In this document: piece after piece, positions 49,617 through 56,451 of the stretch
Position numbering within the stretch: the stretch's first letter is position 1
How the letters are laid out: each line of letters starts with the position of its first letter
Origin: Oscillospiraceae bacterium
Lineage (GTDB): Bacteria > Bacillota > Clostridia > Oscillospirales > Ruminococcaceae
NCBI GenBank assembly: GCA_017848115.1
Contig: JAGAKZ010000031.1
Location: forward strand, 86,700-150,699
Length of the DNA: 64,000 nt
Direction of reading: 5' to 3'
The notes under the pieces: generated by a model
Databases searched by the model: none
What the model saw: only the letters and a program-made list of their open reading frames with translations
What the model was told of the DNA's origin: nothing
Position numbers and translations under genes: made by a program

Positions 49617-49985
49617 TTATTTTGAAAATTCTGTAGCTATCTTTCCTATCAGTTTATATTGTTCATCATTAATCTTTTTAGGATATACAGAATTTATATC
49701 ACGAAAAGCTTCAGCAAGGTCACGTAATATTTGTATTTGATTTTCCGATAAACTTACTGTAGAAATTGTTGTTGTTTTCTCCATACCTGATAAATAATCC
49801 ATAGATACATTAAAAATAGCAGCTAAAGTTCTGACAGTATCAAAAGTAGGACTTTGAATATTTTTTTCATATTTACTTATGATAGAACTTTCTTTATTTA
49901 TCTTTACTGCAAGTTGTTCCTGTGTCATTCCTCGTTCTTTCCTAAGTTTTTGTAATATCATACCGAAGTCATAACCATTGTTCAT
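49617..49985 (-). CDS. XRE-family regulator
   Basis: 122 residues. Helix-turn-helix at about 9-63 (ILQKLRKERGMTQEQLAVKI, SSIISKYEKNIQSPTFDTVR). The C-terminal 50 residues are helical (LSENQIQILRDLAEAFRDIN). GAGGTGC precedes the ATG. It lies head-to-head with the recombinase module at 50121-51502 and could be its repressor, though no direct evidence shows this. Confidence 0.88.
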   Translation of the reverse strand: MNNGYDFGMILQKLRKERGMTQEQLAVKINKESSIISKYEKNIQSPTFDTVRTLAAIFNVSMDYLSGMEKTTTISTVSLSENQIQILRDLAEAFRDINSVYPKKINDEQYKLIGKIATEFSK

Positions 49986-50120
49986 ATACGCACCTCAAAA
50001 AATTGATTTATAATCAAATTTTAAAGTATATATATTGAAAATAATTCAGTTTAATGATATAATATTTGATAAATACGCAAGTGTTATTTATAAAAAAATA
50101 TATATCGACCTCGCAAAAAA

Positions 50121-50149
50121 AAGTCGCAAATTTGAGTAATTTGCGACTT
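50121..50149 (+). repeat. Palindromic recombinase site, left
   Basis: Arms AAGTCGCAAATT (50121-50132) and AATTTGCGACTT (50138-50149) around the 5-bp spacer TGAGT. Near-identical arms recur at 51477-51502 with spacer ACTCA, the reverse complement. The two sites bracket the tyrosine recombinase gene. Such short arms with a 5-bp spacer are the form of core sites of Tn916-type integrases. Confidence 0.6.
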
Positions 50150-50196
50150 ATCCCTATGTTTGAATTATAGCACTAGTGACAACTTTAGTCAATAGT

Positions 50197-50225
50197 TTGA
50201 AGTGTAATTTATATATATGTACAAT
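50197..50225 (+). promoter_or_regulatory. Possible recombinase promoter
   Basis: TTGAAG (50197-50202), 17-nt spacer, TACAAT (50220-50225), about 100 bp before the recombinase ATG. A second TATAAT lies at 50232-50237. Both are inside the bracketed segment. Confidence 0.45.
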
Positions 50226-50284
50226 GTTAGGTATAATATTTTATAATAATCTTACAAAACAAATTAGATTTTAGAATTATTAAC

Positions 50285-50306
50285 CGTCAAAATTATCGTC
50301 AAAATT
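50285..50306 (+). repeat. Arm-type repeats before the recombinase
   Basis: CGTCAAAATT at 50285-50294 and 50297-50306, 12 bp apart. A third copy stands after the gene at 51419-51428, within the same TAACCGTCAAAATT context. They may be binding sites of the integrase N-terminal domain. Confidence 0.5.
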
Positions 50307-50324
50307 TTTAAGGAGTGATTATAT

Positions 50325-51407
50325 ATGCCCAAACGTGGAGAAAACATTTATAAAAGAAAAGATGGTAGATGGGAAGGAAGAATTAAAATTGAATTTAACG
50401 GAAAAGTTAAATATAAATATTTTTATGGAAAAACATATAAAATTGTTAAAGAAAAAATTGCTCTATTTAAAATAACTGACTCACCAACTTCTGAATGTTC
50501 TTATAAAACCATTGATTCACTTTTTAATGAATGGTTTACAGCTATACAGTTTTCCGTAAAACCTTCAACATTATATAATTATAAAACGAAAGTAAAAAAA
50601 CACATTATTCCTGCGTTTGGCAAGCTATATTATAATGAATTAGAAGTTTCAATGATAAATAATTTTATATCAGACAAAGTTTCAACGGGACTTTCAATAG
50701 GATATGTTTGTGATATTATTGCTGTTTTAAAATCCATGGCAAAATATATGTATAAGGTATATGGTTATAAAAATATTATTACAAATGTTACTATACCAAG
50801 AGGTAAAACTAAGGATCTATCATTACTTTCTGATGAACAACAGAAAATTCTTTTTAAAACTCTTACAACTTGTATAAATGAAACAAAACTATGTATATTA
50901 CTTAGTTTTTATACGGGAATAAGAATTGGTGAAGTATGCGGTTTAACATGGAGCGATGTTGACTTTATCAACAATACAATAAATATAAACAAAACAGTCC
51001 AACGCATACATGATACTGATAGTTCATTAACACGATTGATAATTGATATTCCTAAAAGTAAATCTTCAAAACGTATAATACCATTACCTACATTTATCAC
51101 TGAAATTCTTAAAAAATATAAGGGAGACGCTGACACTTACATTCTATCAGGCAATAATAATATAATGGAACCACGGACGTTACAGAGACGTTTTAAATCG
51201 ATATTAAAAAAATCAGGACTTCCGGATATTAATTACCACAGCTTAAGACATATGTTTGCAACAAATTGTATAAAACTTGGTTTTGATATAAAAACACTTT
51301 CTGAAATACTTGGACATTCATCAATTGAAATTACTTTAAAGAGGTACGTACATGCTTCTCTTGAAAGAAAAATTGAATGTATGAATTTGCTAAGTCCTAA
51401 ATTATAA
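50325..51407 (+). CDS. Tn916-type tyrosine recombinase
   Basis: 360 residues. N-terminal beta-rich DNA-binding domain (MPKRGENIYKRKDGRWEGR), SAM-like core-binding domain (about 65-150) and the catalytic domain, with Arg in YTGIRIGEVCGL, Lys in PKSKSSKR, His-x-x-Arg in YHSLRHMF, His in LGHSSIEI and Tyr in LKRYVHAS: all catalytic residues are there. AAGGAG precedes the ATG. Its promoter lies inside and the gene is flanked by two inverted palindromic sites. Related recombinases flip promoters or move conjugative elements; here no transfer genes are near. No hairpin terminator follows it. Confidence 0.93.
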   Translation: MPKRGENIYKRKDGRWEGRIKIEFNGKVKYKYFYGKTYKIVKEKIALFKITDSPTSECSYKTIDSLFNEWFTAIQFSVKPSTLYNYKTKVKKHIIPAFGKLYYNELEVSMINNFISDKVSTGLSIGYVCDIIAVLKSMAKYMYKVYGYKNIITNVTIPRGKTKDLSLLSDEQQKILFKTLTTCINETKLCILLSFYTGIRIGEVCGLTWSDVDFINNTININKTVQRIHDTDSSLTRLIIDIPKSKSSKRIIPLPTFITEILKKYKGDADTYILSGNNNIMEPRTLQRRFKSILKKSGLPDINYHSLRHMFATNCIKLGFDIKTLSEILGHSSIEITLKRYVHASLERKIECMNLLSPKL

Positions 51408-51418
51408 ATATCTATAAC

Positions 51419-51428
51419 CGTCAAAATT
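51419..51428 (+). repeat. Arm-type repeat after the recombinase
   Basis: Third CGTCAAAATT, 12 bp past the stop of the recombinase, in the same orientation as the two before it. Confidence 0.45.
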
Positions 51429-51476
51429 TTAGTCATAATCAATCCAAACATAATAAATATATATGCTATAGGTAAT

Positions 51477-51502
51477 TAGTCGCAAATTACTCAAATTTGC
51501 GA
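51477..51502 (+). repeat. Palindromic recombinase site, right
   Basis: AGTCGCAAATT (51478-51488), spacer ACTCA (51489-51493), AATTTGCGA (51494-51502). The outer right arm departs from the left site after 9 bp. The spacer is the reverse complement of that in the left site, so the two are inverted. It lies 51 bp before the lipoprotein gene. Confidence 0.6.
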
Positions 51503-51552: not shown

Positions 51553-52134
51553 ATGGCAAGAAAAAGAAATATATTTTTATCAAGCTTAGCTGCAATAGGA
51601 ATGACTATATCTACCGTTTCCTGTGGAGCTACTGATGTTAATTACGACATGTTGGAATGTGAAGAACTAATAGATGATTTTGCAGATTATACAACTGACA
51701 AAAACTGCAAAAAAATATGTAGTTTAATTTTTACAGATGAAATGGTTGAAGACTGCAACGTTTTGTATTATACAGAAATGAAACTACAAATCACAAACAG
51801 AAATCTCATATTCAAACAAAGTTTTGGTGATTTATTCGAGAGTATCAAATATGAATTTACAGATACTTCATTCAGTGAATTATCTGATGATAATTTAGAA
51901 ATAACCAAAGCCTTTTATGCTGATTTAGGATATACTGTTGGCATTTCTGAGGGGTATTGGGTTTCATCAACTTTTTCGTCTTCCGCCGGATATGAATACA
52001 ATGCTGATTTTGCTGTTGTCAAAATTGATGATGAGTGGAAAATTTCTCCTCAAATTTGGTTAGTAACATTCGGACAAAAACTTGAACCTTTACGTAAAGT
52101 ATTCACTGAAGAAGACTTCTATAGTATTTTATAA
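51553..52134 (+). CDS. Putative lipoprotein, unknown function
   Basis: 193 residues, not recognised. Signal peptide with a near-lipobox ending TVSC (Cys about 24), so likely lipidated by Lgt and cut by LspA. The mature part has several Cys (near 36, 53, 57 and 69) and an acidic start (DMLECEELIDDFADYT), then a mostly beta C-half (WVSSTFSSSAGYEYNADFAV). GGGGAGGA precedes the ATG. It directly follows the right recombinase site and leads a run with two small membrane proteins. Confidence 0.75.
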   Translation: MARKRNIFLSSLAAIGMTISTVSCGATDVNYDMLECEELIDDFADYTTDKNCKKICSLIFTDEMVEDCNVLYYTEMKLQITNRNLIFKQSFGDLFESIKYEFTDTSFSELSDDNLEITKAFYADLGYTVGISEGYWVSSTFSSSAGYEYNADFAVVKIDDEWKISPQIWLVTFGQKLEPLRKVFTEEDFYSIL

Positions 52135-52177
52135 ATACTTAATTATTTAGTTTATTAAATATAAGGGGGATTATATT

Positions 52178-52612
52178 ATGAACGAACATGATATTGACAT
52201 TATTGATGAAAAAGTTGATAACAACACTGCCGAAAAGGATCAGCAATCAACTGAAACAAACAAGGAAGATATGACATATTTTGACTGGACAATAGCAATT
52301 GCATTTATTATCTTTGTAGTTTACCTTTTAATTTGTATACTTAATGCAGGATTATGGAATTTAATAATAAAAATACTTGTTTCATTAACATTCGCAGGTT
52401 GTTATAAAGTAGCAGAAGAATCAGGACATGGTTTTGCACAATTCTTTTTTGGACTTTGTTTTTTATTATCAATTTTAAGAATTGTATTTTTAATACTTGG
52501 GAAAAATGGACTATTGATACTTATTGGATATTGCATTTTAACAGCTATTGCTTGCAAAATTGCATCTAATGCTGATAAGAAAAGAATTAAAAAAATAAAT
52601 GACGTACAATAA
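52178..52612 (+). CDS. Small membrane protein, unknown
   Basis: 144 residues, not recognised. Acidic soluble N-terminus (about 1-35), then about four hydrophobic helices (about 38-58, 64-80, 87-106 and 111-130) and a basic tail KKRIKKIN. AAGGGGGA precedes the ATG. The gap of 43 bp to the lipoprotein gene fits one operon. Confidence 0.6.
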   Translation: MNEHDIDIIDEKVDNNTAEKDQQSTETNKEDMTYFDWTIAIAFIIFVVYLLICILNAGLWNLIIKILVSLTFAGCYKVAEESGHGFAQFFFGLCFLLSILRIVFLILGKNGLLILIGYCILTAIACKIASNADKKRIKKINDVQ

Positions 52613-52644
52613 TAACATTTTAATTTGATAGGGGGAGATAAATT

Positions 52645-52944
52645 ATGGAGTGTATGCTATCTAACGGGATAACTGTGGCAATTTTGGTGCCCAATATTGC
52701 ATATATTATGTTTTACGTTATTGTGGGCTCAATTGTAGCCACAATATTTGGAAACGAATTCGGTTCAAAATTCGGAAAAGTTTTTGGTTTATCATCTTAT
52801 TTAATATGTATAGGAATGGAAATAGAGTCTAAGCACCCTCTACATGTTATCTTTTTCATTGTTATGCTTATACTCGTTATTTGTCTTTACAGATATTTAA
52901 AACCTTACATGACATCTGATAATACCAACGATCAAGATGGATAA
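52645..52944 (+). CDS. Small membrane protein, unknown
   Basis: 99 residues, not recognised. About three hydrophobic helices (about 8-34, 47-60 and 68-85), with GNEFGSKFGKVFGL between the first two. GGGGGAGA precedes the ATG. It ends the lipoprotein operon; a strong terminator follows 14 bp later. The three genes have no known partners in the window. Confidence 0.55.
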   Translation: MECMLSNGITVAILVPNIAYIMFYVIVGSIVATIFGNEFGSKFGKVFGLSSYLICIGMEIESKHPLHVIFFIVMLILVICLYRYLKPYMTSDNTNDQDG

Positions 52945-53004: not shown

Positions 53005-54679
53005 CGTAACTGTTCAGCACCTCAGTCTTCAATAGCGTAAAAAGCATTACCTTCAAAGACATTCAAAATAGCCTGAAAAGCATTTTTACCATGTTTCTTT
53101 GCTGTTCCAACATAGGACATTACAGCAAGATAATCACGAACACCTTCTTCAGAGCGAAAACATCCGGATACTTTTGTTTTAACTTTAATCATTCGTAAAT
53201 CACGTTCAGCTTGATTGTTATCAAACGCAACTTTGAAGTCTTTGAAAAAAAGCAGACTGCTCCCTTGTATTTATCCAGACGTTCAATGAGCACACGGATT
53301 TTCCCTTTTTTCTTTCTTCCTCGTTTTCCGGGAGTTTTTTCTTCCGGTAAAGGATTTTTTTCATATGCTGATTTCAGAATTTCAGCATATTGTTTATCGT
53401 ACATTTCAATATAATGCGTGTTTGCATGTGTTTCACCGTTAAGAATAGAAACTTCTTTGGTTTTCTTCATATTAACAAGCAGTATTTTGAAATGTTTTGC
53501 CCATTCCTGTTCTGGATAGTTCTCAAGAATTCCGTTCAGTTCTCTGAGTAGGTGGGCACAGCACACAGCATGCTCGACATCATACTTCCAATACGATGCC
53601 CAACAGTCATGCTGTATGATTCCTTTATAGAATGGCAGAACTCCAAATTCTTTCATGCCTTTTTCTCCTCGTTTCTGACTATAACCGAGAAGAGTATACA
53701 TAGATGTAACTGCACAATGAATCCAACCGGTTCTTCCATTTACTCTGGAGCCGGTTTCATCAAAATTAACAACTGTTTCTTTAAGTATACGTTTTTTGAT
53801 TGTATCAAGAACAGGTTGGACCTTATTACTGAATCGGGATACCATTGCTATAATGGTTGCTTTGGATATAGGAAGATTAAGAATACTTCCGGCAATTTCT
53901 TTTACTCTGTCTGTACTTACAGCACCAACTGTATTGAGTGCAACAAGCAATGATGAAATCTTATTACCGTAAGATATTCTTCCGTTGATTGATTCAGGAA
54001 ATTCACCTTTTAATTTTGCTTTATCAATTGGGCAAGTCACGTTAAGACTGCAATATTCTGTGATAGTCTGCTTGATTTCTACGTCAACCACATATCTCTT
54101 TTCGCCGGAGCATGCTTTTCCCTGGCATTTGTCCCAATTTGGGCATGCTTTGCATCTTGCTGGTATAACAGAGATAGTTACATCAGGATCCCCGGTTATT
54201 TCAAGATTATGTCCGTCATGTCCTTTTTGACCGCCTTGCTTTCTGTTTGTTTTTTCTCTTAGACTTGTCTTTTTATTGGGTTTCTTTAATCCGTCGCTTG
54301 AAGGTGGCTTTGAACTGTTGTTTGAGTTTTTGTTTTTCTTTTCTGTGAGTTCTGCTATTTTCTGAGTAAGAACTTCTATTTGTGCTGTGAGTTCCGAGAT
54401 TTGTTCACTTTGTTTTTGGTTTTGATTTATCAAGTCAGAAATCTGTTCACTTTGCTTTTTATTCTGTTCCAGCAGAACATTGTTTTGTTTCATCATAGCA
54501 CGAAACTCTTCGGTTATTTCAAACTGCATTCAAGACACCTTCTTTCGTAGTTTTATATACTTATTATACTACTAAAAAGATATCATTTCTATTAGAGATT
54601 TTAACAAGATATTATCAACTATGCTATGTTGAAAACCTTTAATTTTTTTCAGGAAGCTCTATACTCCTGAACAGTTACG
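53005..54679 (-). mobile_element. IS66-family insertion sequence
   Basis: CGTAACTGTTCAG (53005-53017) and its inverted copy CTGAACAGTTACG (54667-54679) bound a 1675-bp unit with one transposase gene. The short, single-gene form fits the ISBst12-like branch of IS66 without tnpA/tnpB. No 8-bp target duplication is seen at these ends, so one end may have been reworked. Confidence 0.8.
53022..54529 (-). pseudogene. IS66-family transposase, frameshifted
   Basis: The main frame gives 446 residues: an N-terminal coiled coil with repeated KQSEQIS, the Ser-rich SSKPPSSDG motif, a zinc-binding Cys cluster (ARCKACPNWDKC) and the catalytic core (NFDETGSRVNGR with the first Asp, IQHDCWASY with the second). 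At an A7 run on the plus strand (53245-53251) the frame breaks; in the other frame the protein goes on as FKDFKVAFDNNQAERDLRMI, which holds the catalytic Glu, to a stop at 53022. Removing one base restores a full-length protein. It could be a real mutation, slippage or an assembly error. Confidence 0.88.
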
Positions 54680-54851: not shown

Positions 54852-55451
54852 ATGTCTATCATATCACAGGTAAAAGACAGAATCACCGCTACACCTGATG
54901 GCGAAATACTGATGACATCAGATTTTTCTGATTTATCAAATATTACAACTATTCGAAAATGTCTTGGAAGATGCGCTACCGAAGGCTTAATCAGACGTGT
55001 CTTGGATGGTATTTATGAAAAACCAAAATACAGTTGTTTACTTGGAGAATATCTTCCAACTGATCCTGAAAAAATAGCATATGCTCTTTCACGAAAGTAC
55101 CATTGGACAATAGCGCCATGCGGAGATATTGCATTAAACAAACTCGGCCTCACTACACAAGTACCGACAGTGTGGTCATATATAAGCGACGGACCTTATA
55201 GAAATTTTAGTTGCAACAATATACAAATTAAATTCAAACATAAGGCCAACAGGGAAATATCGTTATTATCAGAAGAAACTATACTGGTTATTGAAGCTAT
55301 TCGCACACTTGGCAAAGAACACATAAATGATGAAATTATCAATCAACTAAAAAGAAAAATACCTCAAAAAAATAAATCTGTAATTCTAAACGAAGCTACG
55401 GCGTGTAGTGAATGGATTTATGAAATAATAAGAAAGGTCTGTACATCATAA
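54852..55451 (+). CDS. AbiEi-type antitoxin (DUF6088-like)
   Basis: 199 residues. N-terminal winged helix (about 15-60, TIRKCLGRCATEGLIRRVLDGIYE) and the family core PEKIAYALSRKYHWTIAPCGDIALNKLGL, as in the antitoxins of type IV AbiE systems. It should repress its own promoter and counter the toxin without touching it. The toxin gene begins directly at its stop (TAAATG). AAGGAGGAA precedes the ATG. Confidence 0.82.
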   Translation: MSIISQVKDRITATPDGEILMTSDFSDLSNITTIRKCLGRCATEGLIRRVLDGIYEKPKYSCLLGEYLPTDPEKIAYALSRKYHWTIAPCGDIALNKLGLTTQVPTVWSYISDGPYRNFSCNNIQIKFKHKANREISLLSEETILVIEAIRTLGKEHINDEIINQLKRKIPQKNKSVILNEATACSEWIYEIIRKVCTS

Positions 55452-56451
55452 ATGAAAAATATTGCATTACTTTCAAATGAAGAAAGACAAGAATTATTCC
55501 AGGCAACAGCTTTTAAAATGAGAATGCGTCCTGAAGTAATTGAAAAAGATTTCTGGGTATGTTTCATGCTAGATCATCTTTTTCATGAGTGTGAATATAG
55601 AGAAGCTTTTGTTTTTAAAGGCGGAACAAGTCTTTCAAAAGCATATCATGTAATAGAACGTTTTTCAGAAGATATCGACTTAATACTTGACTGGAGAAAA
55701 ATAATCAAAGATGATTCAAACCCTTGGGATGAACGTTCAAGAACTAAACAAGATAATTATAACAAACAAATAAACAAAGAGGCTGCTAAATTTTATCTTA
55801 ATACTCTTGTACCCATATTAAACCAAGAACTTTCTCTCAAAATAGGAAACGGTCAATGGGTAAAAGTCGATGATAATGATGAAATGATTATTGACTTTAT
55901 TTATCCTCAAATCTTTAAAACAGAATATATTATCCCTCATGTTAGACTGGAAATCGGTCCGCTTGCAGAATGGATGCCTTCTCACCTCACAGCCATCTCG
56001 CCTTTCGTAGCTGAACAATACGAAAAATTATTTACGCAGAAAAGTACAGATATACTAACTATTGATGTCGAAAGAACTTTTTGGGAGAAAATAACCATAT
56101 TACATAAAATCGCAAACTTTCCTGAAAACAAAACACTTCCACACAGATATGCCCGCCATCTTTATGATGTATACTGTCTTGGTAATTCAGATTATAAAAA
56201 AATCTGCATTTGAAAGAAAAAACCTCCTTGAAAAAGATATAATCTTTAAACAAAAGTTCTACTATACTAAAAGTGCTCATTATGAAACGGCAACCCTAAA
56301 AACTATAAATCTTATTCCATCTGCTACCATTCTGCCATCGCTCAAATCTGATTATATTGCAATGAAAAACATGTTTTATGGAGAATCCCCTGATTTTAAT
56401 GACATTCTGACATATTTAAAACAACTTGAATCTGAAATACATAATCTATAA
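55452..56451 (+). pseudogene. AbiEii-type nucleotidyltransferase toxin, frameshifted
   Basis: The first frame gives 253 residues with the nucleotidyltransferase motifs FKGGTSLSKAYHVIERFSED (G-G-T-S and the D-x-D of SEDIDL) and the later HKIANFPENKTLPHRYARH block. It ends early at an A7 run (56196-56202); the next frame continues KSAFERKNLLEKDIIF to LKQLESEIHNL and a stop at 56451. Removing one A gives a full-length protein of about 333 residues. In the family the toxin adds nucleotides, probably to tRNA or other targets, and aborts phage infection. All catalytic motifs lie before the break. Confidence 0.85.

Follow-up and report, generated by a model that had tools for sequence, protein, structure and literature searches.

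A probable self-inverting promoter cassette carrying its own tyrosine recombinase in an Oscillospiraceae genome

The location of a tyrosine recombinase gene between two short inverted sites, next to a small lipoprotein operon, raises the question of whether the enclosed 1.4-kb segment inverts and, if so, which promoter and which genes would be affected by its inversion. The segment lies in a 64,000-nucleotide stretch of DNA, here termed the window, from an incomplete (81%) Oscillospiraceae genome, and it was compared with its relatives in assemblies that are mostly metagenome bins. Positions 50122-51502 very probably constitute a self-inverting promoter cassette that carries its own recombinase, and the grounds for this reading are set out below together with the alternatives.

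The cassette and its core sites

The elements of the cassette are the following, in window coordinates and with the strand in brackets.

50122..50148 (+): left core recombination site, with arms AGTCGCAAATT / AATTTGCGACT and spacer TGAGT at 50133-50137
50281..50305 (+): direct repeat of two GTCAAAAT units directly 5' of the recombinase gene, a presumed arm-type binding site (sequence repeat)
50325..51407 (+): complete gene for a tyrosine recombinase of 360 aa, the presumed inverting enzyme (open reading frame and domain matches)
51415..51439 (+): second copy of the direct repeat, directly 3' of the recombinase stop codon, a presumed arm-type binding site (sequence repeat)
51478..51502 (-): right core recombination site, inverted, AGTCGCAAATT ACTCA AATTTGCGA, with spacer ACTCA at 51489-51493

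The left site reads AGTCGCAAATT TGAGT AATTTGCGA(CT) at 50122-50148 and, since its spacer and that of the right site are exact reverse complements, the two core sites are inverted relative to each other. The pattern TCGCAAATT-N5-AATTTGCGA, with up to three mismatches, has exactly two matches in the window, a number reached in none of 100 dinucleotide shuffles of the same DNA (mean 0.14), and the pairing is thus far from chance. Across the whole genome, the 25-base pattern at the same tolerance returns the two window sites, one site on contig C41 beside a paralogous recombinase 58% identical to that of the window, and one weak match on contig C21; cassettes of this recombinase family number three in the genome. 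Rfam and tRNA scans of the window gave no matches. These results bear out the initial annotation in its description of a complete tyrosine recombinase gene between two inverted core-type sites with reverse-complementary spacers, the left site starting one base away from where the annotation had the segment begin.

The recombinase matches Phage_integrase (PF00589) at 1.2e-29, together with a SAM-like core-binding domain. Residues R200, H305, R308, H331 and Y341, which we take to be the catalytic residues, are invariant in 29 aligned recombinases (the window included and L072, which has an internal stop, excluded), and with its conserved R, H-x-x-R, H and Y the protein is placed in the tyrosine recombinase family; the domain scan detected in it no resolvase domain of the kind that would mark a Hin-type serine invertase. 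Its matches among solved structures include XerA and the 'Int protein' chains 6en0 and 6emy, which are presumably Tn1549 Int. For an N-terminal arm-binding domain there is a weak AP2 match alone (E 0.034), seen in three of the 29 family members. Among the relatives described below, a paired GTCA motif is found just upstream of the recombinase in 51 of 76 loci (6 of 760 shuffles) and just downstream in 30 of 76 (4 of 760), while TGACG, the reverse reading of the motif, is scarce (2 upstream and 4 downstream). These paired motifs suggest arm-type sites as in bivalent integrases.

Paired sites and inversions across the family

Relatives were sampled as the best 80 of 582 in the genome collection, together with regions of relatives from further genome searches. 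This yielded 95 loci, of which five with short flanks were excluded, leaving 90 testable ones with the window included; from the 19 regions of the second search, L054 was left out as judged to be the same contig as L106, and L059, L060, L061 and L062 as truncated genes or flank only. The site test compared the 500 bp upstream of each recombinase with the 500 bp downstream, with a threshold score of at least 15. An inverted match at this threshold flanks the recombinase in 80 of the 90 loci (76 of 86 without identical copies, and 66 of 75 among loci from the best 80 of 582 alone), and ten have no detectable inverted pair; a direct match was obtained in eight. When the upstream flank of one locus was set against the downstream flank of another, the threshold was reached in 3 of 300 comparisons, so the arms alone fall short of it, and inverted pairs were absent from the 16 distant tyrosine recombinases scored (best score 12), a seventeenth having been dropped for its short flanks. 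The inverted arrangement of the window sites is hence a trait of the family.

Across 75 loci, conserved arms (about TTTCGCAAA, with up to 1.8 bits per position) contrast with a near-random 5-bp spacer (0.03-0.39 bits, 65 kinds). Within a site pair the spacer is identical in 74 of the 75 loci, a value that is partly built in because pairs were picked for near-exact match. The copies L066, L116, L119 and L121 were kept when the 90 and the 80 loci and their promoters were counted, and left out of the spacer, terminator, GTCA and neighbour counts; L099, with an inverted match 181 bp long, was excluded from the spacer statistics. A scan for palindromes alone was misleading at some loci, as it returned a single site in L009/L015 (= L044/L045) and took a terminator hairpin for a site in L010/L017 (= L051/L050); the true partner sites were identified by eye in the flanks.

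More distant relatives present the same arrangement to varying degrees. Five Enterococcus plasmid copies (33-35% identical) have inverted pairs scoring 17-26, and the E. gilvus copy of the cassette adjoins a WxL operon. A Vescimonas relative has an inverted pair scoring 21, Ruminococcus albus 7 a weaker one scoring 15, and in a Bacteroides relative the best inverted score, 10, is below the threshold for a pair; of the 40 relatives in plasmid records, 8 were fetched. Recombinase relatives also occur in 298 phage records, at 40% identity at best, and decayed copies exist, such as L048, which retains a single site and in which the recombinase match breaks off at residue 340.

Comparison of related loci reveals three pairs in which the cassette is inverted. 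One is that of L050 and L051, one locus in two genomes (a congener and C60, a contig of the window's own genome), where collinear flanks 98.3-99.4% identical enclose a 1240-bp cassette inverted at 99.4%. The cassette is likewise inverted between L091 and L093 (80% identical), where the flank matches on both sides are short (504 and 318 bp at 76-81%), and between L046 and L047 (84%), where one flank is adjacent and collinearity on the other side begins only at distances of about 6.7 and 2.3 kb. A helicase-type neighbour lies past the recombinase 3' end (D side) in L046, L086 and L128 and on the opposite, U side in L047, L052, L079 and L083, some of the matches in this comparison being only 129-163 bp long. 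The main reading of the initial annotation, that the segment inverts, thus gains from relatives flipped between common flanks and from locus-specific spacers that match within pairs; the check that this annotation itself had named, which would have counted against it had the arms lacked conservation near related recombinase genes and no relative been inverted, came out in its favour.

The window locus itself offers fewer comparisons. A homologue of its lipoprotein gene was found in one of 11 genus genomes, the window's own, and in none of the 10 congeners; with the gene found in no relative, inversion of this very locus was not seen. Window flank DNA matches six of the 11 genomes, through the HTH gene to the left of the cassette, recombinase relatives and a few short matches. 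From the behaviour of the related loci, we infer that the cassette is active in this strain as well. No sign of an inverted form was detected in Enterococcus raffinosus plasmids in sets of 3, 1 and 5 matched records, which were not read base by base; two E. raffinosus records have about 1.5 kb extra.

A tree was built from 49 recombinases, of which 45 carried a label for the neighbour side; this label has to change at least eight times on it, and not every change equals a flip, as neighbours vary between loci. The window's clade (22 rows) has 10 D and 8 U labels, and the other main clade 21 D and 2 U in 23 rows. All three inverted pairs fall outside the latter, which is a real limit on the inversion claim: either OFF predominates in that clade, or flipping is rare or biased there.

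Output of the putative switch and rival readings

The question of what an inversion would switch brings in the promoters, the terminator-like sites and the genes on either side.

49617..49985 (-): gene for an Xre/HTH_3 regulator, across the cassette from the presumed target (domain match)
50035..50063 (+): promoter-like site outside the cassette, TTGAAA-17-TATAAT, pointing in (consensus match only)
50121..50149 (-): hairpin of the left core site with a T-run immediately beyond the cassette edge, resembling a terminator for leftward transcription (RNA fold -17.1 kcal/mol, z -4.5)
50164..50192 (-): P_out, a putative promoter TTGACT-17-TATAAT whose -10 is preceded by TG, directed outward to the left across the left core site (consensus match)
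51553..52134 (+): lipoprotein-like gene, first of the presumed target operon (open reading frame, lipobox pattern)
52178..52612 (+): second gene of this presumed operon, for a small protein, presumably of the membrane (open reading frame; membrane nature by eye)
52645..52944 (+): third gene of this presumed operon, likewise for a small protein, presumably of the membrane (open reading frame; membrane nature by eye)

The product of the first operon gene is presumably lipoprotein-like, given its lipobox pattern. None of the three operon proteins has a Pfam or NCBIfam match, and PADLOC, run on the products of 51553..52134 and 52178..52612, returned none for these two.

P_out, the paired direct repeats and the left-site hairpin with its T-run are features additional to those of the initial annotation. 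Promoter-like sites in the window region overall are no commoner than in shuffles (29 against 25.9), but of 80 loci, 68 have an outward promoter scoring at least 10/12 and 16 a perfect 12/12, where 800 shuffles gave 75 and none. The Enterococcus plasmid copies reach 10/12 in three of five cases and 9 in two. Inward promoters between the upstream site and the gene, at 10/12 or better, occur in 18 of the 80 loci. Hence, to judge from the sequence, it is most likely P_out, and not the recombinase's own promoter, that does the switching. The proposal that the recombinase promoter, carried in the flipping segment, switches the lipoprotein operon is therefore upheld as regards inversion and revised as regards the promoter, the likelier switch being P_out on the opposite strand.

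The left-site T-run comprises eight T, the first two of which are able to pair in the stem. The right core site folds at -10.6 (z -2.0), and under a loose terminator rule both core sites pass, the right one weakly. Of the 37 loci with one outward neighbour, among which L050 and L051 are entered separately although they represent the same locus, 12 have terminator-like sites on the non-target side and 2 on the target side (Fisher p 0.006).

The mechanism that we propose would run as follows. The recombinase would bind the two inverted core sites, and strand exchange across their common 5-bp spacer would flip the 1.4 kb together with the recombinase gene and the outward promoter. In the present orientation P_out would fire to the left and probably be halted by the left-site hairpin and T-run, and the promoter-like site at 50035-50063 may feed the recombinase. 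After a flip, coordinate arithmetic would put the predicted start of P_out about 85 nt upstream of the first codon of the lipoprotein gene, and P_out would drive the three-gene operon 51553-52944. As P_out now points left and a flip would aim it at this operon, the operon is probably OFF in the present assembly.

The assignment of OFF to the present state has a competitor, which is also the reading nearest to the wording of the initial annotation. The segment would again be invertible, but the present state would be ON, with the recombinase and the lipoprotein operon co-transcribed from the recombinase promoter or from 50035-50063, and a flip would turn the operon OFF. It would fit the orientation of the recombinase, which points at the lone outward neighbour in 31 of the 37 loci, the good inward promoter outside the left site of the window, and the fact that the right site presents rightward transcription with no more than a weak terminator-like hairpin. 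Inward promoters of at least 11/12 outside the cassette on the U side also speak for it: only 4 of 76 loci have one, but this is above chance, as the shuffles gave 1 in 760. The promoters that point inward from between the left site and the gene, however, are weak next to the outward ones, and terminators are enriched on the non-target side, which would have to be shielded from a strong outward promoter, so that we place this reading on the unlikely side. That the cassette was once invertible and is now locked in the window is less probable again: decayed copies do exist and the lipoprotein gene is missing from the 10 congeners searched, but the window gene is intact with its invariant residues, and its sites and spacers are perfect.

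A different kind of alternative, also raised by the initial annotation, would make the segment a minimal mobile unit, excised and integrated by the recombinase, with the spacers as coupling sequences. The integrase-type enzyme, the arm-type repeats at both ends and the occurrence of cassettes at many loci, three of them in the window's genome, would be in keeping with such a unit, and two cassette pairs 80-81% identical, L088/L091 and L071/L077 (the latter with short flanks), have no common flank, making old movement possible. The spacers, however, are inverted and not direct, and match within loci, with direct repeats at threshold in just 8 of the 90. Moreover, the ten most similar cassette pairs (at least 83% identity) all have some flank in common, five of these pairs being copies of one locus (same genome or one transferred stretch), and the 11 genus genomes searched with the flank gave no empty-site pair. 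For these reasons mobility is disfavoured, and we consider it very improbable. Finally, the palindromes might be terminators or operator sites only, in line with the folding of the core sites as RNA hairpins; this would leave the locus-specific reverse-complementary spacers unexplained, as well as the natural inversions in relatives, whose inverted forms end in the sites, and it seems extremely improbable.

Related systems and neighbouring genes

Among known systems, the best comparison for the self-inverting cassette is with Salmonella Hin, a serine recombinase acting on hix sites in flagellar phase variation, the gene of which is presumably located inside the H segment. The Hin segment is the closest working analogue of the window cassette; it likewise has inverted sites and an outward promoter for a neighbouring operon (PMC9368917). 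The window cassette differs from it in having a tyrosine recombinase and locus-specific 5-bp spacers. Recombinase genes inside their own invertible segment are already on record as single cases (PMC5903667, PMC12324116). In the fim system of Providencia stuartii, an 844-bp putative invertible segment encloses a recombinase ORF beside a fimbrial locus; this is a single case in a Proteobacterium, with 14-bp imperfect repeats, and is likened here by description and not by sequence (PMC5903667). In the cod hsdS inverton of Streptococcus pneumoniae, the recombinase gene psrA is listed within the inverton it acts on, which swaps hsdS coding segments whereas the window cassette would flip a promoter (PMC12324116). 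In the hCom2 community, inverton group 139 (33 invertons, 32 of them from Clostridia) is tied to invertase group 35, a tyrosine recombinase that intersects these invertons or lies within 5 kb of them; by description, these groups may overlap the window family, and the sections of the paper at hand do not state that the recombinase lies inside the inverton and flips with it (PMC11892184). Integrases of the Tn916/Tn1549 type combine SAM-like core-binding and catalytic domains, as does the window recombinase; unlike in those elements, the sites here are inverted and relatives display inversion, excision not having been seen. A literature search, with most subscription papers, bioRxiv preprints and supplements outside its scope, found no description of this integrase-type family.

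It is possible, and we advance it tentatively, that the family forms a widespread class of self-contained switches in Clostridia and enterococci, in which an arm-site integrase-type recombinase has turned into a dedicated inverter inside its own outward-promoter segment. The spacers would then act as private codes allowing paralogous switches (for the lipoprotein operon, Zorya-like defence genes and a polysaccharide operon) to flip independently, and arm sites and the Xre regulator would bias or gate direction. A sequence rule combining paired core sites, a common private spacer, an outward promoter by the upstream site and arm repeats could serve to detect phase-variable operons of Clostridia with assemblies as the sole input, and genes for surface LRR proteins, polysaccharides, LytTR regulators and defence are found next to the cassettes. 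The mechanistic question raised is what makes an arm-site enzyme of the integrase type invert DNA and not excise it.

Outward genes were tallied from mechanically called ORFs, some of them doubtful, in 66 loci with at least 800 bp on each side; they lie on the 3' side only in 31 loci, on the 5' side only in 6, on both in 26 and on neither in 3, and the excess of the 3' side over the 5' side counts against the inversion reading. Domain scans covered 59 of 71 such genes on the 3' (D) side and 40 of 46 on the 5' (U) side, those left out being copies and mostly short or doubtful ORFs. The 59 on the 3' side include six LytTR response regulators, four BspA-type LRR proteins, three HA helicases and two Wzz proteins. 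HTH_3 occurs in 6 of the 40 on the 5' side, as in the window, and is not among the 25 families listed for the 3' side.

Several neighbourhoods deserve mention in their own right. In the window's genome, the C60 cassette (read in L050/L051) adjoins a glycosyltransferase operon, and the paralogous cassette on contig C41 (L044:7094-14596) lies between an ATPase gene and a Zorya-like ZorA/ZorB pair, with ZorB scoring under the NCBIfam cut-off; this might be a phase-variable defence locus. The same cassette, identical or nearly so, is present in Butyricicoccus, Blautia and Agathobaculum records (L115:7803-10400, L116 and L119); the identity spans all available flank, up to 6 kb (1.6 kb on one L116 side), the downstream core site of the L115-type cassette is followed after 449 bp by the start of a gene for the rRNA methylase Erm(B), and the cassette looks to be carried on a larger transferred element. 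In L099 (1504-11930), long genes with similar starts (by eye) flank the cassette on both sides, with the 181-bp inverted match noted above, and a flip might choose between two alternative proteins. On the recombinase-bearing plasmid pRUMAL02 of Ruminococcus albus 7 (L162), the recombinase relative sits among five further annotated recombinase genes.

Around the window cassette, the HTH gene and its upstream region (49617-50076) have relatives 74-76% identical in three congeners, and next to the one that was read (L145) there is a methylase-like gene (by eye) instead of a cassette. Just past the lipoprotein operon lies an IS66-family transposase gene (53189-54529), the match of which stops at position 246 of a 284-position profile. 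It is followed at 54852-56213 by a DUF6088 / AbiEii gene pair, likely a type IV toxin-antitoxin system.
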